This document shows positions 40,668 to 50,360 of a DNA stretch of 64,000 nt, in pieces (within the stretch, counting starts at the first letter, position 1; every line of letters starts with the position of its first letter). Location of the stretch: the NCBI GenBank assembly GCA_028287235.1, contig JAQBQB010000028.1:310001-374000 (forward strand), given 5' to 3'. Under the pieces are notes generated by a model. It ran no database searches. It was not told the origin of the DNA and worked only from the letters and a program-made list of their open reading frames with translations. This DNA is from Gemmatimonadota bacterium. Its GTDB lineage: Bacteria; Gemmatimonadota; Gemmatimonadetes; Gemmatimonadales; Gemmatimonadaceae. The translations under genes were made by a program, and so were the position numbers.

Positions 40668-43236
40668 CGAGCACCTTTTTCGCCTCGGCCGCCGCCTTCG
40701 CCAGCGCCTTCCTCACTGGGGTGACAGCATAGATCGCCGCGGCTTCGTACGCCTCCGAGACGATGTCGAAGATCTCGACGATGTCGGGATCGATGTCGAT
40801 GTCGCGGGTGTGCTCGACCAGGCGGGCGTATGCGGGCAGCGCCGGCGATTGCGCGAGCGTCGCCGTAAAGCGCTCGTCCGTCGCGAGTCCGCGCCGGTAC
40901 GGCAGTTGGCTCGCCTCGATCAGCAGCCGATCCGCCTCGGGCGACGTGAGGTAGGCGACGAACCGCGCCGCCGCGTCCACGTGCTTCGTCGTCGCGAAGA
41001 TGGCGATGCTGCGCAGATCGGCGAAGGCGTACGCGTCGCCCGGCGCCGCGCCGTCCGCGGAGGGAACCGGAGCGACGCCGTAACGGAGCCCCGCTGGCTT
41101 CGACGCATCCAGTTCCTTGAGGAACCACGGGCCGATGATCTTCATCGCGACCGTTCCGTCGATGAACGGATCGCGACCGAGCGCAAAGTTTGCCTTCGGC
41201 AGCAGATTGCGCGCGAAGCCCGTTCGCAGCACGTCCATCGCCGACGCGGCCGCGGCATTGTCGAACTGCACTCTTCCGTTCGACACGAGCGTACGCCCGC
41301 CCGAGCTCGCGAGGTACAGCGGATAGAAATCGTAGAAGCGCTCGAACCAGGTCGTCTTGAGCGACGCCCACATCGCCCACTTGTCCAGCCGGCCGTCGCC
41401 GTCGGTGTCTCTTGCCAACTTCTGGAACGCCGCGAGCAGCTCGGTGTGATTCCGCGGCGGACTGATGCCGGCGCGAGCCAGTAAGTCCACATTGTACAGC
41501 AGCATTTCGGGATTCGTCTTCCACGGAAAGGAATAGATCCCTCCGTCCGGCAACCGAAGCGGCGCGAGCATCGCCGGCGTCGTTCGCTCGGCCAGTCGCG
41601 CCGCCGCGGGCGTGAGGTTGTCGAGCCGCACCACGCCATTCGCACGCACGAGCCGCGAGAGCAGCGCCGACGACACGTTGGAGCAGACGTCCGGCGTGGC
41701 GCGCGCGACGATGGCGGCGAGCAGCACCTCCTCGGTCGATCGCCCCGCGGGCAGCGGCTGCACGCGCACCTGCACGTCGGAGTGCTCGCGGTTCCAGTGG
41801 TCCGCGAGCAGCATCGCGAGCTTCACCTCGGGCGGATTGGCCGCGGGCCAGTAGGTGAGCGTGATCGGCCCCGTCGCTCCATGGACCTCGCTGAGCGCGA
41901 GGCGTTGCCCGTGTTGCTCGAGGACGACTTTGCCTCCGTCAGGGCCCGCATACTCTCGTTTGACCGGCAGCTCGGCGAGCGAAGCCGACGCGCCGCCCGC
42001 GGGCTTGTAGCGGAGATACTCCACGGCATCCGCGTTGCTCGTCACGGCCTGCAGCGCAAGCAGCGACTCGATCGTCGACTCGGCGCCGGAGTTGCGATTC
42101 ACTTGCGCCGCCGACGCTCCGTCGATGCCGTCGAAGGTGCGGCCCGTCTTCTCGTCGTACATCGCGACGCCGGCGGGATTGGCGCCGACGAGCCACGCCG
42201 CGGTGAGGCCGCCCATCACCGCGTACCGGCGATCGTTTGTCGCGTCCGCGATCGCGACGAAACCCTCAGCGATGGGACCCACGCCGTAGGCGATCTGCGG
42301 AAACCACTTCGGCGTGCCGTTTGGTGCGATCTCAGAGGGTATTCGGCCGGCCAACAGGAAGCGGCTCCAGAGCGCGTCCGCTTCTCCCTTCGCGGCAACG
42401 AGGAATTCCGGATGGCCGAGCACCACGGACGCTTCGGCCAGCGCCGCGACCGAGCGCGAGCCCCAGGCGTGCCACGCAGACGTGGGAGCGTCCACGCGCG
42501 CGCTCCACGGTGCCTGCGACGCACCGCCGGCCGCGAGCGGAACGAGCAGTCGCGCCATGCGCACGGCCAACTCCCCGCGCGCCGGCGATGGCTCGGCGCG
42601 CTGCAACGCCAGCACTCCGAGCAACGCCTCCGACGTCGCCGTCACCGAGCCGCCGATCAATCGCTCCGCATCGACGTCGCGCGCCATGCGTGCAACGGCG
42701 CGGTCGAGCGGCGCGTCGAGCCCCCGTAGTCCGGCAGGATACGCGCGGCCGAAGACGCGATGCGCCTCGCCGAGCGCCCAGATGCCGCGCGCCGCCCAGT
42801 ACGACATGCTCTTCCGGCTGCTGGGGGCACTCGTGTTCGGACGGCCAGTCGTGTCGACGAAGTTGAGGAACTCGCCGTCGCCCTGCTCCATTGCCGCGAC
42901 GAAGTGGAGCAGCCCTCGCGCCTCATCTCTCGCGAGCGTGTCGCCGGTTTGTTCGAAGGCGCGGAGATAGAGCACGGCGGCGCGGGCGGCATCGTCGACG
43001 CTGGCGATTCCCTCGAACCCGTCGCGCGCCGGCGATCCGGCGGGGCGGTAGTCCGGTGCGTTGGAGTACAGCGCCACGACGCGTACCGGCTTCGACGCGA
43101 CGACCGCACTCCGCGTGAGATGCCGTAGATGGTCGTAGTTCAGCACGAGCGGCGGCGGCGCGGCGCTTGTGGGCACCGGCGGTGCGCCGTGACAGGCAAG
43201 TGTCGAGAGGGCCGCGGCGCAACACAAAACTCTCAT
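40657..43236 (-). CDS. Lipoprotein fusing an (alpha/alpha)6-barrel-like domain to an ABC sugar-binding protein
   Basis: An 859-residue lipoprotein (MRVLCCAAALSTLAC, Cys15). Residues about 34-410 resemble a six-hairpin glycosidase-like barrel (DGFEGIASVDDAARAAVLYLRAFE, repeated paired helices, NRNSGAESTIESLLALQA). From about 457 to the end it is a family 1 sugar-binding protein: ITLTYWPAANPPEVKLAMLLADHWN, YSFPWKTNPEMLLYNVDLL, AMKIIGPWFLKEL, YAFADLRSIAIF. The two parts are normally separate proteins. The N-domain might cleave or hold the glycan before import. Its ATG overlaps the GH130 stop (43233-43236) and its stop overlaps MalF. I cannot name catalytic residues in the barrel. Confidence 0.82.
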   Translation of the reverse strand: MRVLCCAAALSTLACHGAPPVPTSAAPPPLVLNYDHLRHLTRSAVVASKPVRVVALYSNAPDYRPAGSPARDGFEGIASVDDAARAAVLYLRAFEQTGDTLARDEARGLLHFVAAMEQGDGEFLNFVDTTGRPNTSAPSSRKSMSYWAARGIWALGEAHRVFGRAYPAGLRGLDAPLDRAVARMARDVDAERLIGGSVTATSEALLGVLALQRAEPSPARGELAVRMARLLVPLAAGGASQAPWSARVDAPTSAWHAWGSRSVAALAEASVVLGHPEFLVAAKGEADALWSRFLLAGRIPSEIAPNGTPKWFPQIAYGVGPIAEGFVAIADATNDRRYAVMGGLTAAWLVGANPAGVAMYDEKTGRTFDGIDGASAAQVNRNSGAESTIESLLALQAVTSNADAVEYLRYKPAGGASASLAELPVKREYAGPDGGKVVLEQHGQRLALSEVHGATGPITLTYWPAANPPEVKLAMLLADHWNREHSDVQVRVQPLPAGRSTEEVLLAAIVARATPDVCSNVSSALLSRLVRANGVVRLDNLTPAAARLAERTTPAMLAPLRLPDGGIYSFPWKTNPEMLLYNVDLLARAGISPPRNHTELLAAFQKLARDTDGDGRLDKWAMWASLKTTWFERFYDFYPLYLASSGGRTLVSNGRVQFDNAAAASAMDVLRTGFARNLLPKANFALGRDPFIDGTVAMKIIGPWFLKELDASKPAGLRYGVAPVPSADGAAPGDAYAFADLRSIAIFATTKHVDAAARFVAYLTSPEADRLLIEASQLPYRRGLATDERFTATLAQSPALPAYARLVEHTRDIDIDPDIVEIFDIVSEAYEAAAIYAVTPVRKALAKAAAEAKKVLDAR

Positions 43237-44201
43237 CGCCAACCCATCTCCGCCTCGATCGACGCGAGCAGCGCTTCCCTGTTCACGCGCGCGCCGGCGA
43301 CGGAGACGTCGGCGGCGCCATAGTACACGATGAGATCGTCGCCGCGCTCCACCAAGCCTTGCGGAAAGACGACGCGCACGCCGGTCGGGAAGTTCGCCAT
43401 GTCCACCTGCGGGATTGGCCCGGCGTCGATCTCGTACGGTGCCTCCGGCGTGAGCGCGGGGGCGTCGGACACATAGAGAACCTTTTCCGGCGCATCGCGG
43501 TCGAGCAGGCACCATCCCATGGAGTACACGTTGCCTTCGGCGATCGTGGTCGCGCCGTGAAACGGCAGCAGCCATCCCAACCGCGTCTCGATCGGAGGCG
43601 CACCCGCTCCGACGCGCGAGCTGCGCCAGCTATTCGGTTTGGGGCCGAGCACCTCGGCACCCATCGTCGGCCATTCCTCGTCGAGCCGGTCCACGCGCAC
43701 GCAGACGATGTGCGGCATGGGGCGGTGCAAGATCACGTACTGCCCTCCGACCTTCCGCGGAAAGATCACACAATTCTTATTGTCGCCGGCGAGGCGCGGG
43801 CCGTGCCGAACGTACTGTGCGGGATCGAGCAAGTCGCCGGTGGTAATGAGGCAGACGCGCGGACCCGCCGCCGAGTAGCCGGTATAGGTGATCGCGTATC
43901 GCCCCTCCTCCTCGAGCCAGGTGATTCGCGCGTCCTCTACGCCCCATTCCTCGTACGCCGCCTCGCGCGCGACCGCCGGCCGCGGCCAGATCTCGTCGAC
44001 GCTCATCCCGTCGCTCGAGAGCGCCATGGCGAGACACGACCGCCGCGTGTCGTCCTCGAACACTCGCACCAGGAGAGCGACACGTCCGCTCGCGCGGTCG
44101 ACGCACGCGCCGGGGTTGAACGCGCCGCTCGCCCGCGTGAACGCGATCTGCGACGGGCGGACGAGGGGGTTGGCGGCGAGCCGCTCGAGAGGCTCGATCA
44201 T
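43233..44201 (-). CDS. GH130 family mannoside hydrolase/phosphorylase (second copy in operon)
   Basis: A 322-residue five-bladed propeller enzyme of GH130. Key segments are NPLVRPS, FNPGACVDRASGRVALLVRV, WGVEDARITWLEEEGRYAITYTGYS, NKNCVIFPRKVGGQYVILHRPMP and YYGAADVSVA. GH130 enzymes act on beta-mannosides, by phosphorolysis or hydrolysis. No secretion signal is seen, so it works in the cytoplasm on imported sugar. ATG at 44201 is chosen since it overlaps the GH5-like stop (ATGA, 44198-44201); an in-frame start 18 bases earlier is less likely. Confidence 0.92.
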   Translation of the reverse strand: MIEPLERLAANPLVRPSQIAFTRASGAFNPGACVDRASGRVALLVRVFEDDTRRSCLAMALSSDGMSVDEIWPRPAVAREAAYEEWGVEDARITWLEEEGRYAITYTGYSAAGPRVCLITTGDLLDPAQYVRHGPRLAGDNKNCVIFPRKVGGQYVILHRPMPHIVCVRVDRLDEEWPTMGAEVLGPKPNSWRSSRVGAGAPPIETRLGWLLPFHGATTIAEGNVYSMGWCLLDRDAPEKVLYVSDAPALTPEAPYEIDAGPIPQVDMANFPTGVRVVFPQGLVERGDDLIVYYGAADVSVAGARVNREALLASIEAEMGWR

Positions 44202-45394
44202 GCGCGCTCCGCGACCCACTTGGCGTACAGCCGCTCGAAGTGCGCGGCGGGAGCGCCGTAGTATTCGTCCGCGCTCACGTCCAGAACGTGGGGAACGGCG
44301 CCGCGAACGAGGTCGCCGCGGTCGATCCGTTGCCTGAGCTCGCGAGAGATCGCTGCCGCAGGCTTCTCGCTGCCGTCGGCGCGCACGAGTCCGAACGTAC
44401 GCTCACGAATCGCCCGGTCGAAGGGCGGGCGCGTGAACAGCGCCGGATCATAGTCGGCGTAGCACCACGCGTACGCGCCCGCGGCGCCGGTCCGCGCGAG
44501 CCCACTCACGACCGACTTGTAGTACGCCGCGCCCTCTTCCTCCGAGGCGAGATACTGCGTGCGCGGTTGCCCGAGAAACTCGTCGGTGATCGAGCCTCCC
44601 GGCTCCCCCTTGGGCGCCGTGCACAATCCGAATTCCTGCATCAGCGGTGCACGCTGCCGTCCCGACAATCCGGCCGTGAGCGCGCACGAAAATGGAACGA
44701 GCTCCGGGTCGAGAAAGGACCGCGCGAACTGTGAATACAGCGGATACGCGTGCATCACGTCTTCGTCGAGCTCCGCCGCGAGATCGTCGATGCGCATGTG
44801 ATTCACCGTCGTCAGCGACGGCAGGTGCGCGCCGATCCGCACCGCGCTGCCCGGCGCCGCCGCGCGGATGGCGCCGGCGATCGCCGACGTCCAGGTCCGA
44901 GCGTCCTCACGCGTCGTGGGGCGCTGGGCATCGTCGATCTCGTTCGCGATGTCGAACGCGCGAACGGACGCGTCTCCCGCCAGCGCGCTCGCACACGCAT
45001 AGGCGAGCAGCACCTGCGACCGCACGACCGCAGGATCGGAATAGAGATTCGCCGGCGCGCCATCCGCGGCAAGCATCCAGCGCGGCCACCAGATGGCGCC
45101 GCTCATGTTGATGACGACGAGCGTGGGCACAATCGAGAGGCCGGCCTCCTTCGCCACCCGTGCCACCTCCACGAGCCGGCTCACCATCCGTGCGTCGACA
45201 CACTCGCGCTCCGGGAGAAAATCCTGCGCGAGCGCGAAGAGCCGCACCGTCTCGAACCCCATGTCGGCGATGTGCGCGAGCTCGTCGCGCACTTCGCCCA
45301 CGTCGAGCTCGCGCCACATGTACATCGCTCGGCGCCGGGGCCAGTAGTTGATGCCCAGCTCGAATGGCGCGAGTGCCGGCGCGCGGGCAGTCAA
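44198..45394 (-). CDS. GH5-like glycoside hydrolase (mannanase/mannosidase-like)
   Basis: A 398-residue TIM-barrel hydrolase. FELGINYWPRRRAMYMW and ADMGFETVRLFALAQDF form the barrel start. The likely acid/base Glu is in FDIANEIDD, and the nucleophile Glu in PLMQEFGLCT. Related GH5-type proteins act on beta-mannans. No signal peptide is seen. A TTG start at 45394 is chosen because it overlaps the upstream GH130 stop as TTGA (45391-45394) and leaves a complete barrel, whereas the first ATG would remove the first strand. It lies between two GH130 genes, which supports a mannoside role. Confidence 0.85.
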   Translation of the reverse strand: MTARAPALAPFELGINYWPRRRAMYMWRELDVGEVRDELAHIADMGFETVRLFALAQDFLPERECVDARMVSRLVEVARVAKEAGLSIVPTLVVINMSGAIWWPRWMLAADGAPANLYSDPAVVRSQVLLAYACASALAGDASVRAFDIANEIDDAQRPTTREDARTWTSAIAGAIRAAAPGSAVRIGAHLPSLTTVNHMRIDDLAAELDEDVMHAYPLYSQFARSFLDPELVPFSCALTAGLSGRQRAPLMQEFGLCTAPKGEPGGSITDEFLGQPRTQYLASEEEGAAYYKSVVSGLARTGAAGAYAWCYADYDPALFTRPPFDRAIRERTFGLVRADGSEKPAAAISRELRQRIDRGDLVRGAVPHVLDVSADEYYGAPAAHFERLYAKWVAERA

Positions 45395-46443
45395 ATCAGC
45401 CCGCCGAGGATCTCGGTCAACGACAGATCGGCGACGGCCGTTACGCCGTCCGCCGCGCCATAGTACACACGAACGTTGTCGCCCTCGGCCACCAGGCCGC
45501 AGGTGAACACGACGCCCGGAAAGAATCCGTGGCGCTCGTACGGCATCTCCGGCGTGAGGATCGGCTCGCGCGAGCGCGCGATGACGACCGAGGGGTCGTT
45601 CGCGTCGAGCAGCAGCGCGCCCAGCGCATATTCCGTGGCGGATTTGCTCACGCCGTGATAGACGGCGAGCCAGCCGCCTGGCACTCGGAATGGCACTGCA
45701 CCGCCGCCGATCTTCGCGTCGTCCCACGCGCCCGGCCTCGCTTTGGCGACGAACTTGTGCTCGCCCCACGCCGCGAGGTCCGACGACGTCGCACTCCAGA
45801 TGGCGGGTTCGCCGATGCCCTCGGGCATCGGACGATGCAGCGCGACGTACCGTCCGCCGATCTTCTCCGGGAAGATCGTGACGTCGCGATTGTTCGGCGG
45901 AAAGATGACGCCGTGCCGCTCGAAGCGTCGAAAGTCCGTGGTCGACGCGAGCGCGGTTGCGATGCCGAGCGGCGAGACAGCGGTGTAGTTGATCCAGTAG
46001 CGGCCGTCGATGAGCGTGATGCGCGCATCCTCGACGCCGAACGACTCGAGCTCCGTCGCCGGCGCGAGGGCGGGGTGCGGCTCGACGTCGAAGTGGATGC
46101 CGTCGGTCGAGCGTGCGACGCGCAGGTGCGAAATCGAGGTCAACCAACTGCGGCCGTCGAGGACGATCACACGCGGATCGCTGGCGTCGAGCCCCGGCGT
46201 ATTCGTCGGCCAGCGTTTGATCTCGAGTTGGCCAGTCCTCGCGTCGAACACCGGCGCGGCGACCTCGGACTCCGACCGCCCGCCCAACGGAGGCGCCTCG
46301 GCCACGCGCAGCAGGAGCACGACGTCGCCCCTGTGACGAACGGCGGCCGGATTGAACACGCCGACGACGTCGAGATCCGAGCGCGACGGTCGAACCATGG
46401 CCGGCGTGAGTATCGGATTCTCGGGGGCGCGTCGTGGGGTCAT
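45391..46443 (-). CDS. GH130 family mannoside hydrolase/phosphorylase (first gene of operon)
   Basis: A 350-residue GH130 propeller. Motifs parallel the other copy: NPILTPAMVRPS, GVFNPAAVRHRGDVVLLLRVAE, FGVEDARITLIDGRYWINYTAVSP, NNRDVTIFPEKIGGRYVALHRPMP, AKIGGGAVPFRVPGGWLAVYHGV and YYGAADGVTAVADLS. The two copies are clearly different, so they may split hydrolysis and phosphorolysis or act on different chain lengths. ATG at 46443 is used; an in-frame TTG at 46470 is possible. It begins the mannoside operon and is divergent from the selenoprotein gene at 46554. Confidence 0.9.
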   Translation of the reverse strand: MTPRRAPENPILTPAMVRPSRSDLDVVGVFNPAAVRHRGDVVLLLRVAEAPPLGGRSESEVAAPVFDARTGQLEIKRWPTNTPGLDASDPRVIVLDGRSWLTSISHLRVARSTDGIHFDVEPHPALAPATELESFGVEDARITLIDGRYWINYTAVSPLGIATALASTTDFRRFERHGVIFPPNNRDVTIFPEKIGGRYVALHRPMPEGIGEPAIWSATSSDLAAWGEHKFVAKARPGAWDDAKIGGGAVPFRVPGGWLAVYHGVSKSATEYALGALLLDANDPSVVIARSREPILTPEMPYERHGFFPGVVFTCGLVAEGDNVRVYYGAADGVTAVADLSLTEILGGLI

Positions 46444-46553
46444 GCCTTCCGGGTGGCGAGGAGCGGTCAACTATACAGCGCCGCGGGCGTGCGCGCGAAA
46501 CGGTTGCCTCGCCGCGCGCTGGACCGTATCGTCTGTCGACCAAGGAGGCGCCG

Positions 46554-47150
46554 ATGAAGCCGATGTACTTGCCGGAGGTGGAAGCGCACCGAGGCACCGG
46601 TCCGCGTGCCGCGGCGATCGAGCAGATGCGGGCTGCGGGAATTCCGATTCCCCAGATCATGCACCTTTTCGCCTACAAGCCCGACCGTACCGACCATCTC
46701 GCCGCGTTCACCCAAGGCGTGATGCGAGGCCCGTCACCGCTCCCGCCGGGCCAGCGCGAGCTGATCGCGGCGCTGACGTCCAAGCTCAATCAGTGCCTCT
46801 TCTGAATTGGCTCCCACGCCGCGGTCGCGGCGGAGCTGCTGGGAGATCGTGAGCTCGTCCAGGGCGTGCTGACCGATCTCGACACCGCGCCGGTCTCCGG
46901 CAAGGACCGTGCGTTGTACGCGTTCGTGAAGAAGATGGTCGCCGACTCCCTCTCGATCGGCGAAGCCGACGCCGAGGCCGTGCGCGCCGCCGGGTGGACC
47001 GACGAGGCGCTGTACGACGCGATCAGCGTGGTGGCATTGTTCCAGTTCTATAATGCGTGGATCGACGCGACCGGTGTGGGCGACCTGCCGGCGATGGGGT
47101 ACGAAATGTCGGGCAAGCGCCTCGCGACGCAGGGGTACGTGATGGGTTGA
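46554..47150 (+). CDS. AhpD/carboxymuconolactone-decarboxylase family selenoprotein (TGA = Sec)
   Basis: Reading through one in-frame TGA (46803-46805) gives a single 198-residue protein. The first 83 residues (from MKPMYLPEVEAHRG) and the 114 residues after the TGA both match the AhpD/CMD peroxidase-related fold. The TGA stands exactly at the second Cys of the active-site CxxC: N-Q-C81-L-F-U84-I-G-S-H88, where family members have C-x-x-C-x-x-x-H. The frame stays open with conserved sequence (AAVAAELLG, ALYDAISVVALFQFYNAWIDATG). AAGGAGG five bases before ATG 46554 is an excellent ribosome site. The enzyme should be a thiol/selenol peroxidase-like or decarboxylase-like reductase. SelA/B/C/D are not in the window. 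A plain nonsense mutation is the alternative. Confidence 0.88.
46810..46836 (+). promoter_or_regulatory. SECIS-like hairpin directly after the TGA
   Basis: Stem cgccgc (46817-46822), loop ggtc (46823-46826), stem gcggcg (46827-46832) is a perfect six-pair GC stem. Lower pairs gctc/gagc (46810-46813 with 46833-46836) extend it past a three-base bulge (cca). The GGU of the loop begins 18 bases after the TGA. The E. coli fdhF element has the same GGU loop core 19 bases after its UGA. This matches the known bacterial SECIS layout bound by SelB. The hairpin lies inside the coding sequence, as expected for bacteria. Confidence 0.8.
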
Positions 47151-47174
47151 GGGGCCGCGTCTCGTAACTCGCTC

Positions 47175-47302
47175 CTCGTACCTTGACCCTCGAACCTGGG
47201 CTGGCTCGGCGACGTCGAGATGCTGGGCCATCATATCGTAGCGGCTCGAGTCGATATCTCGACATCGCTGAACGAGCCCAGGTTCGAGGCTCAAGGCGCG
47301 AG
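47175..47302. repeat. Long imperfect palindrome between convergent genes
   Basis: Two 47-bp arms, 47175-47221 and 47256-47302, are inverted copies of each other with few mismatches. The core ctcgaacctgggct pairs with agcccaggttcgag. A 34-bp loop lies between. It sits between the selenoprotein gene and the convergent MFS gene, 24 bp from one stop and 18 bp from the other. It could work as a two-way terminator or be a mobile palindromic element. A T-rich tail is missing, so classic intrinsic termination is not shown. Confidence 0.75.
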
Positions 47303-47320
47303 TCACCAGGCGCGAGGTTG

Positions 47321-48733
47321 CTACACCCGGCCCCCGGGCCCGCTGCTCGGCACCGGCTGCGCCGACTCGGGCAGAATGAACGGCTCGTGCGCATCGCCCT
47401 CGATCACCGCCCGGAACGGCACATCCCGCTCGCCGACGTCGCGCACGAACGTCACGCACGCCGCGGCCGTCAGCAAACAGGCGCCGCCCATCATCACCAC
47501 GTAGAGCGGCGCATTCGGATTGTCGACACCGAACAACAGACGGATGAGCGGGCCGAAGCCGAGCGACGCGATGATCTCGGGAATGACGATGAAGAAGTTG
47601 AAGACGCCCATGTACACACCCATCCGCTTCGCGGGCAGCGCCGTGGAGAGCATCGCGTAGGGCATCGACAGGATCGACGCCCACGCGATGCCGACGCCGA
47701 CCATGCTGAGCAGCAACACGTACTTGTCGTGAATCAGGTAGACGGAGAGGAGCGAGGCGCCGCCGCAGATCAGGGCACCGGCGTGCACCGTCTTGCGGCT
47801 CGTCGCGGCCGCGAGCTTCGGGAGCGCGAGCGCGACGACGAAGCACGTCATCGAGTAGAAGGCGAACGCAAACCCGCCCCACTCGATGCCGCTCGTGTAC
47901 AGGACGGACTTGGGATCGCTCGCGACGAACACGTGCCGGGCAGTGGCCGGTACGAAGAAGAGCCACATGCAGAAGAGGCCGAGCCAGGTGAATACCTGCA
48001 CGACGGCGAGCTGCCGCATCGTGACCGGCATCTCGCGCAGCGCCGCGCCGACTTCGCGCAGCACGTCGCCAATCCCGTGCCGGTTCTGCTTCTCTCGCTC
48101 GAACGCTTCCAGGTCCTCCGGGGGGTATTCTCCCGTGGTGAAGACCGTCCAGAGCACGGCGGCAAGAAAGACGAGCGCTCCGAACTGGAAAGAGTACTTC
48201 ACCGAGAGCGGAATCCCGCTCGTCGTATTCCCTTTGACGCCCATCCAGCTAAGGAAGAGCGGCAGCGCGTTCGCCATGCTCGCGCCCAGACCGATGAAGA
48301 ACGACTGCATCACGTAGCCGGCCGTGCGCTGCGACGTGTTGAGCTTGTCCGCCACGAAGGCGCGGAACGGCTCCATCGACACGTTGACCGATGCGTCGAG
48401 AATCCAGAGGAGTCCCGCCGCCATCCACAGGGCGCTCGACGTCGGCATGAAGAAGAGCGCGACGGAGGCGAGGAGCGCACCGGCGAGGAAGTACGGTCGG
48501 CGCCGGCCGAGGCGGCCCCACGTTCGGTCGCTCATCGCGCCGATGATCGGCTGGATCAGTAAGCCCGTTACCGGCGCCGCGAGCCAGAGGAGCGGCACCT
48601 GATCGGGGCGCGCTCCCAGCTTCTCGTACACCGCCGACATGTTCGCGAGCTGGAGGCCCCACCCGAACTGGATACCGAGGAAGCCAAAGCTCATGTTGAA
48701 GAGCTGCCAGAAGCTCAGACGTGGCTTTTCCAT
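47321..48733 (-). CDS. MFS sugar transporter (glucoside/disaccharide type)
   Basis: A 470-residue carrier with twelve helices. The segments FNMSFGFLGIQFGWGLQLANMSAVYEKLG and LIQPIIGAMSDRTWGRLGRRRPYFLAG match the sucrose/maltose-type MFS/GPH-like carriers, and WILDASVNVSMEPFRAFVADKL is the helix-5 pattern of the same group. It probably imports an alpha-glucoside released by the GH13 enzyme coded divergently. ATG at 48733 is used; ATG at 48745 would overlap the divergent gene start. Only about ten bases separate the two start codons. Confidence 0.9.
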   Translation of the reverse strand: MEKPRLSFWQLFNMSFGFLGIQFGWGLQLANMSAVYEKLGARPDQVPLLWLAAPVTGLLIQPIIGAMSDRTWGRLGRRRPYFLAGALLASVALFFMPTSSALWMAAGLLWILDASVNVSMEPFRAFVADKLNTSQRTAGYVMQSFFIGLGASMANALPLFLSWMGVKGNTTSGIPLSVKYSFQFGALVFLAAVLWTVFTTGEYPPEDLEAFEREKQNRHGIGDVLREVGAALREMPVTMRQLAVVQVFTWLGLFCMWLFFVPATARHVFVASDPKSVLYTSGIEWGGFAFAFYSMTCFVVALALPKLAAATSRKTVHAGALICGGASLLSVYLIHDKYVLLLSMVGVGIAWASILSMPYAMLSTALPAKRMGVYMGVFNFFIVIPEIIASLGFGPLIRLLFGVDNPNAPLYVVMMGGACLLTAAACVTFVRDVGERDVPFRAVIEGDAHEPFILPESAQPVPSSGPGGRV

Positions 48734-48743
48734 GGGAGAGAAC

Positions 48744-50360
48744 ATGCTCCGGAATTCGAGTTTGGTAAGATGCGGCACCGCCGTCGCCGCAATTCTGGTG
48801 CTTTGCGCAGCCGCGCGCGAGCCCGCTCCCCCGGACTGGAAACGCGGCGCCGTGTGCTACGAGATCTTCGTCCGCTCCTTCTACGACAGCGACGGCGACG
48901 GCATTGGAGATCTCAACGGAGTCACGCAGAAGCTCGACTACATCAACGACGGCAACCCGAGCTCCACGCGCGCCCTCGGCGCCCGCTGCATCTGGTTGAT
49001 GCCCGTCGACGCGTCGCCGAGCTATCACGGCTACGACGTGAAGAACTACTATCGCGTGAATCCGGAGTACGGAACGAATGCCGACTTCAAGCGCCTCATG
49101 GCCGCCGCGCACCAGCGCGGCATCCACGTACTCGTCGACCTCGTGCTCAATCACGCGTCGAGCGAGCACCCCTATTTCAAGGAAGCGCTGCACGACCCCG
49201 CGTCGCCGCACCGCAATTGGTTCCGCTTCTCGCCAACCAAGCCGGACATCAAAGGGCCGTGGGGGCAGGAAGTGTGGCACAAGTCGCCCGAGCGCGACGA
49301 GTACTACTATGGTCTGTTCACCGCCGAGATGCCCGACTTGAACTATGAGAATCCCGCGGTGAAGCAGGAAGCGACCAACGTCGCCCGTTTCTGGCTGGAC
49401 AGCATGGGCGTCGACGGCTTTCGTCTCGACGCGGTGCCGTATCTCGTGGAGGAGGGCACGAAGCTCGATCACACCGCCGGAACGCATGCCGTGCTGCGCG
49501 ACTTCGCGCGGGACGTACGCACGATCTCGCCGGCCGCGTACACGATCGGCGAGGTGTGGGACAGCATCGGTGCGCAGCTACCGTACTATCCCGACCAGCT
49601 CGACGCCTACTTCACCTTTGAAGCCTCGGACGCCATTCTCGACGCCGTGCGATCGGGCTTGCCGAACAAGCTGCTCGCGCCGTTCGTGAGAATGCAGCGC
49701 ACGCTCCCCGCCGATCGGTGGTCGCCCTTTCTGCGCAACCACGACCAGACGCGCACGATGACGGCGCTGGGCGGCGACATGGCACGCGCAAAGTTGGCCG
49801 CCACGCTGCTGCTCACGCTTCCCGGATTGCCGTACGTCTACTACGGCGAGGAGCTTGGCATGACGGGCGACAAGCCCGACCCGCGGCTCCGCACTCCCAT
49901 GCAGTGGACCGCTGGACGCGCCGCCGGTTTCTCGCGCGGCGCGGTGTGGGAGCCGCTCCAGTCCGATTCGCTCACGGCGAACGTCGCCGTGGAGACGGCC
50001 GACCGCGGCTCCCTGCTTAACCTCTATCGACGACTCATTCACTTGCGGTCGTCGAACGGCGCGCTCGGCGAGGGTGAGCTGATTCCGGTGACCGCGAGCA
50101 GCGACGCTGTCACCGCGTACCTTCGGCGCGACGGCACCCATGTCGTGCTCGTGGTGGCCAACTTGGGCGCCGCGCCGCTGCAAGGTGTCACGATCTCGTC
50201 GGGCGACGGCCTGTTGCCGCCGGCGCGGTACAGGGCGACGGACCTGCTCGGCGGTGGCGCCGCGGCGGCGCTCGACGTTGGCGCGGGAGGAGCCATGCGA
50301 GCCTACACACCGCTCGGCACACTCGCGCCGATGCACGCGTACGTGCTCGAGATTCGCTGA
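48744..50360 (+). CDS. GH13 alpha-amylase family enzyme, exported
   Basis: A 538-residue enzyme with an N-terminal signal-type segment (MLRNSSLVRCGTAVAAILVLCAA). The four GH13 regions are intact: DLVLNHASS, GFRLDAVPYL with nucleophile Asp229, TIGEVWD with Glu270 and FLRNHDQTR with His333/Asp334. The early GDGIGDLNG and the C-terminal beta domain place it near oligo-1,6-glucosidase/alpha-amylase-type hydrolases. It should cut alpha-glucans in the periplasm. GGAG five bases before ATG 48744 supports the start. It is divergent from the sugar carrier across about ten bases. Confidence 0.9.
   Translation: MLRNSSLVRCGTAVAAILVLCAAAREPAPPDWKRGAVCYEIFVRSFYDSDGDGIGDLNGVTQKLDYINDGNPSSTRALGARCIWLMPVDASPSYHGYDVKNYYRVNPEYGTNADFKRLMAAAHQRGIHVLVDLVLNHASSEHPYFKEALHDPASPHRNWFRFSPTKPDIKGPWGQEVWHKSPERDEYYYGLFTAEMPDLNYENPAVKQEATNVARFWLDSMGVDGFRLDAVPYLVEEGTKLDHTAGTHAVLRDFARDVRTISPAAYTIGEVWDSIGAQLPYYPDQLDAYFTFEASDAILDAVRSGLPNKLLAPFVRMQRTLPADRWSPFLRNHDQTRTMTALGGDMARAKLAATLLLTLPGLPYVYYGEELGMTGDKPDPRLRTPMQWTAGRAAGFSRGAVWEPLQSDSLTANVAVETADRGSLLNLYRRLIHLRSSNGALGEGELIPVTASSDAVTAYLRRDGTHVVLVVANLGAAPLQGVTISSGDGLLPPARYRATDLLGGGAAAALDVGAGGAMRAYTPLGTLAPMHAYVLEIR

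Follow-up and report, generated by a model that had tools for sequence, protein, structure and literature searches.

An in-frame TGA in an AhpD-like gene

The locus described here raises the question of whether two adjacent open frames in the same phase, separated by a single TGA, are two fragments or one gene in which the TGA is read as selenocysteine (Sec). The frames lie in a stretch of 64,000 nucleotides on contig JAQBQB010000028.1 of a Gemmatimonadota bacterium, hereafter called the window. An earlier note on this DNA had proposed a selenoprotein of the AhpD/CMD family. At the level of sequence analysis, this reading is supported by the Sec machinery of the genome, by a site that holds only TGA or Cys codons, by coding constraint, and by a conserved hairpin.

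Read through the TGA, the locus gives a single gene of 198 codons (MKPMYL...NQCLFUIGSHAAVAAELL...GYVMG; Table 1), in which codon 84 is the second of the two redox positions in a CxxC/CxxU motif, C81-L-F-U84-I-G-S-H88. Coordinates, phase, length and motif were all exact in the earlier note, which had also anticipated that a standard annotation would split the gene: the expected output of a standard gene caller is a fragment that stops after codon 83, followed by a separate frame that begins only at the GTG at 46866. The gene is also overlapped by open antisense frames 410 and 820 codons long, and because long frames of this kind occur in GC-rich DNA, open frames by themselves are poor evidence. 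The TGA-containing frame is not a product of chance, since both the TGA codon and a low dN/dS are conserved across homologous loci.

Table 1. Sequence features of the AhpD-like gene and its surroundings (window coordinates)
Feature	Position	Strand	Basis and remarks
Shine-Dalgarno-like AAGGAGG	46542..46548	+	sequence; upstream of ATG at 46554
Gene of the AhpD-like selenoprotein (198 residues including Sec84)	46554..47150	+	TIGR01926, homologues, structure model; TGA stop 47148-47150
Glu69 codon	46758..46760	+	invariant in alignment A1; spaced like relay Glu118 of AhpD, with first Cys 12 residues further on
Cys81 codon (TGC), first redox residue	46794..46796	+	invariant in alignment
In-frame TGA as Sec84 codon (second redox residue)	46803..46805	+	frame and homologous loci
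Bacterial SECIS hairpin, predicted	46809..46837	+	conserved upper part 46817-46832; apical loop GGUC 46823-46826, 17 nt after UGA
His88 codon	46815..46817	+	invariant; aligns with AhpD relay His137

Family assignment and predicted structure

Two profile matches span the TGA, namely CMD in Pfam (PF02627, 40.6 bits) and the peroxidase-related enzyme family TIGR01926 in NCBIfam (99.6 bits, cut-off 81.8). We take TIGR01926 and COG2128 to be the same family. Also present is the CxxC-type motif of TIGR01926 together with the Glu and the His of the relay, E69, C81, U84 (Cys in the Cys forms) and H88 being invariant in alignment A1. NF041238 (AhpD_rel_CFYUT, alkylhydroperoxidase-related (seleno)protein) has an AhpD core with CxxU in common with the query, but at 45.5 bits the query lies far below its cut-off of 175 and is not a member. 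With Cys in place of Sec, the prediction for the read-through protein is a single helical domain (pLDDT 95, pTM 0.92) without a dip at the TGA, and both this model and its PDB matches are of the AhpD-type helical fold. Foldseek ranked four 'peroxidase-related' proteins at the top, 3c1l (Mlr4105 of Mesorhizobium), 2prr, 6k40 and 2pfx, with a query TM of 0.69–0.79 and about 25% identity. These are the closest solved structures, and in the three alignments compared (2pfx, 2prr and 6k40) they have Cys where the query has Sec. Mycobacterium tuberculosis AhpD (1knc, 1gu9; TM about 0.43–0.48 in the better matches) shares the helical hairpin and the spacing of the Glu, Cys, Cys/Sec and His relay; it differs in having Cys133 instead of Sec, and the query gene is not located beside ahpC. 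The relay of that enzyme comprises Glu118, Cys130, His132, Cys133 and His137 (PMC3141380); E69, C81, U84 and H88 of the query are spaced in the same way, and position 132 corresponds to Phe83.

Selenoproteins of this kind have a longer record. CxxU AhpD-like proteins were found in Sargasso Sea data (PMC1088965), bacterial genomes yielded a selenoprotein 'AhpD-like (COG2128)' (PMC1794560), 299 'AhpD-like 1' selenoprotein sequences were reported from ocean data (PMC2398784), and a 2026 review lists the CxxU forms under TIGR01926, without mentioning Gemmatimonadota (PMC13188914). The suggestion that CxxU is a recurrent pattern and that AhpD-like selenoproteins are known from other bacteria can be made more specific: it is this very family, TIGR01926/COG2128, that has been catalogued since 2005. 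The catalogued proteins and the one described here agree in family, in the CxxU arrangement and in a bacterial SECIS immediately downstream, and we found no difference in kind. The Gemmatimonadota gene is a new member of this family; a literature search of partial coverage returned no paper centred on selenoproteins in Gemmatimonadota.

Codon 84 and coding constraint in relatives

When 394 genomes of the class were searched at the protein level, 59 had a match at E 1e-20 or better. Scanning of genome contigs yielded 21 loci, most of them with a Gemmatimonadota label and others labelled Acidobacteria, Planctomycetota, Deltaproteobacteria or Bacteroidetes. Codon 84 is TGA in 49 of the 50 loci with an extractable motif and TGT (Cys) in one (L072, Bryobacter), a count in which some loci represent one genome present in two collections and from which L051 was left out. 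All nine stop-free homologues retrieved from the class carry CxxC at the site. In the alignment with Cys-containing relatives, only TGA or Cys codons occur at this position, i.e., the in-frame UGA stands opposite a Cys of the homologues, as is expected of a selenoprotein and as claimed earlier for the second active-site Cys. Within the class, TIGR01926 as a whole is divided in the same way into TGA and stop-free forms, and most of the matches listed contain one TGA. Three genomes of the same genus had no match at the E 1e-20 threshold, and the AhpD-like gene is therefore dispensable within the genus.

Three Planctomycetota loci contain two tandem AhpD-like genes each, L065 (3241, 3843), L066 (3241, 3848) and L067 (3235, 3903), and both copies carry TGA in a CxxU motif. 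In the flanks of these loci the automatic motif scan took the second tandem copy in place of the matched gene.

Compared with locus L053, the dN/dS values were 0.066/1.14 upstream of the TGA and 0.121/1.21 downstream; compared with L054 they were 0.091/1.14 and 0.116/0.85, respectively. Since dN is low relative to dS downstream as well, the sequence beyond the TGA is under selection as protein. Residues without variation occur on either side of this codon, among them E69, C81, C/U84, H88, D139, G147 and Y195. Amino-acid identity and low dN/dS thus persist beyond the TGA together with the profile matches, in agreement with the observation that family-like sequence runs on without a break.

A conserved SECIS-like hairpin

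The loop of the hairpin CGCCGC-GGUC-GCGGCG begins 17 nt after the UGA. According to the published model, a bacterial SECIS has a loop of 3–9 nt with a G among its first two nucleotides, an upper stem of 4–16 bp, a UGA-to-loop distance of 16–37 nt and an MFE of -7.5 or lower (PMC13188914). The predicted element conforms to this model with a 4-nt loop (GGUC), a stem of 5–6 bp, a spacing of 17 nt and -18.8 kcal/mol. Its folding energy was unremarkable against dinucleotide shuffles (z -1.2 to -1.65) and, for the window gene, against synonymous recoding (z -1.36), and a control offset elsewhere in the gene gave a similar mean z. Energy was therefore dropped as evidence for a SECIS, and conservation and pairing were used instead.

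Among 45 distinct TGA rows of the alignment, 97.8% of the stem cells are paired, compared with a maximum of 80.4% when the 3′ arm is slid, and every row has G as the second nucleotide of the loop. At the third stem pair, 38 rows have C-G and 6 have G-U, so that both sides have changed with pairing kept, at the price of two amino acid replacements (Ala to Gly and Ala to Ser); no two-sided change was seen in the other five of the six conserved stem pairs. Codons +4 to +9 are each represented by one codon in 92–100% of rows, and the top-codon share over the hairpin reaches 0.97 versus a mean of 0.67 at comparably conserved positions elsewhere. This codon series is absent from the Cys homologue L072. 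Searches against the RFAM database returned no family for the hairpin, only chance matches. The SECIS-like hairpin proposed in the earlier note is therefore present, with a sequence and a pairing that are kept far more strictly than coding would require.

Selenocysteine machinery of the genome

The host genome (G000; 31 contigs totalling 5.73 Mb, completeness and contamination estimated at 100% and 3.6%) encodes tRNA-Sec, SelA, SelB and SelD, the set expected to accompany a selenoprotein, all scoring above curated cut-offs. The tRNA-Sec gene is located at C21:165207-165300 (73.7 bits, cut-off 47; called tRNA-SeC with anticodon TCA by ARAGORN). About 100 bases separate it from selD, which lies upstream (C21:164189-165109; 378 bits). 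This contig also carries selB (C21:98823-100649; 345 bits joined), and selA lies at C11:161680-163008 (531 bits). The sel genes are thus on other contigs, which accounts for their reported absence from the window. As selA and tRNA-Sec were present in three of three sampled genomes of the same genus, contamination or a binning artefact is an unlikely source of the machinery.

A second candidate selenoprotein gene of this genome is formate dehydrogenase-like (FdhA-like; L087, G000:C23:191558-193453, minus strand), with the TGA in SCNRT-U-HAPSVVG. The TGA is followed by a hairpin of -24.0 kcal/mol whose loop begins with GGUC, as in the AhpD-like gene. This putative gene and its hairpin support a working Sec decoding in the organism.

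Within the class, the in-frame TGA form occurs in 52 of the 59 matched genomes and only stop-free forms in the remaining seven. Among the TGA genomes, 47 of 52 have selA and the other five (G242, G188, G382, G132 and G173) all have tRNA-Sec, so that selA or tRNA-Sec is found in 52/52. The genomes with only stop-free forms lack tRNA-Sec in 7/7 and selA in 6/7 cases. Fisher tests gave p = 6.6e-5 for selA and p = 2.9e-9 for the combined comparison, values that overstate the evidence because the combined test compares 'selA or tRNA-Sec' with tRNA-Sec and because the genomes are related. The one stop-free genome with a SelA match (G264, E 1.2e-124) lacks tRNA-Sec and encodes the enzyme in a Cys form; the match may be a SelA relic, a SelA paralogue or the result of an incomplete assembly.

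Sec insertion versus other readings of the TGA

The TGA does interrupt an otherwise normal gene of a Cys family, as it would if a nonsense mutation or a sequencing error had split a Cys gene and left a pseudogene. This reading is refuted by the conservation of the TGA across relatives, the same codon being found in 49 loci from many genera and under several phylum labels; the dN/dS of the downstream part, which is well below 1, the frozen hairpin and the strict co-occurrence of the TGA form with the Sec machinery speak against it as well, and we give it practically no chance. Decoding of the UGA as Trp or Cys, by recoding or by a near-cognate tRNA and without selenium, would agree with the frame, which is open under any sense reading of the codon. 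It appears very improbable, too, as TGA-form genomes have the Sec machinery, genomes with only stop-free forms are devoid of tRNA-Sec, and stop-free homologues have Cys at position 84. Moreover, the terminal stop of the gene is itself a TGA, and TGA is therefore not simply reassigned. Judged from its sequence, the region is one putative selenoprotein gene and not two fragments, a reading that holds. The earlier note had named two findings that would refute it, a complete genome devoid of selA, selB or tRNA-Sec and close relatives with a codon other than Cys or TGA at the site; both were looked for, and neither was encountered. Insertion of Sec at position 84 of this AhpD-like redox protein, inferred from the machinery and the signals, is almost certain.

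Possible mechanism and function

SelB carrying Sec-tRNA(Sec) would bind the SECIS hairpin just downstream of UGA codon 84, and the ribosome would insert Sec and continue to the stop at 47148. The predicted product is an all-helical 'peroxidase-related' protein of the AhpD fold (TIGR01926/COG2128), with Cys81 and Sec84 beside Glu69 and His88. By homology, the Sec84 selenolate would most likely act as the fast nucleophile and reduce peroxide or another electrophilic substrate, Cys81 would resolve the resulting selenenic acid to a selenenylsulfide, and a cellular thiol donor would reduce the latter again.

Our analysis favours, with some reservation, peroxide as the main substrate, in line with the nearest structures and the family name, both of which are peroxidase-related. 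The Sec enzyme might instead act chiefly as a selenol-dependent reductase of some other electrophile, e.g., a Bmp8-like dehalogenase, or as a disulfide oxidoreductase or adaptor, which we regard as possible though rather unlikely. Structural matches of the AhpD fold include, from rank 28 on, the debrominase Bmp8, but as a weaker match with 16% identity; M. tuberculosis AhpD functions as an adaptor for AhpC (PMC3141380). In the window, the neighbours of the gene encode a GH130 protein and an MFS transporter, and ahpC is not beside it. No neighbouring gene is conserved across the family in the loci compared, where shared neighbours are restricted to small groups of loci, so that the neighbourhood points to no particular donor or substrate. 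A more far-reaching proposal combines three statements: that in Gemmatimonadota the Sec form is the rule, that Cys forms mark lineages without tRNA-Sec, and that the selenol acts on a non-peroxide substrate, for example in Bmp8-like reductive dehalogenation. Taken together, these appear improbable.

The surroundings of the gene (window 43233-50360) form a carbohydrate gene cluster with two GH130 genes, the MFS transporter and an alpha-amylase. Just after the gene, the intergenic region 47175-47302 contains an inverted repeat with 47-nt arms that are 85% complementary and 34 nt apart; contigs C19 and C20 of the genome carry partial copies.

The analysis corrects a gene model that would be split on annotation, and this Gemmatimonadota genome has the full machinery for decoding UGA as selenocysteine together with at least two candidate genes that would use it. 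Across the class, the division between 52 TGA-form genomes with machinery and stop-free genomes with tRNA-Sec in 0/7 offers a clean natural comparison of the Sec and Cys versions of the enzyme.
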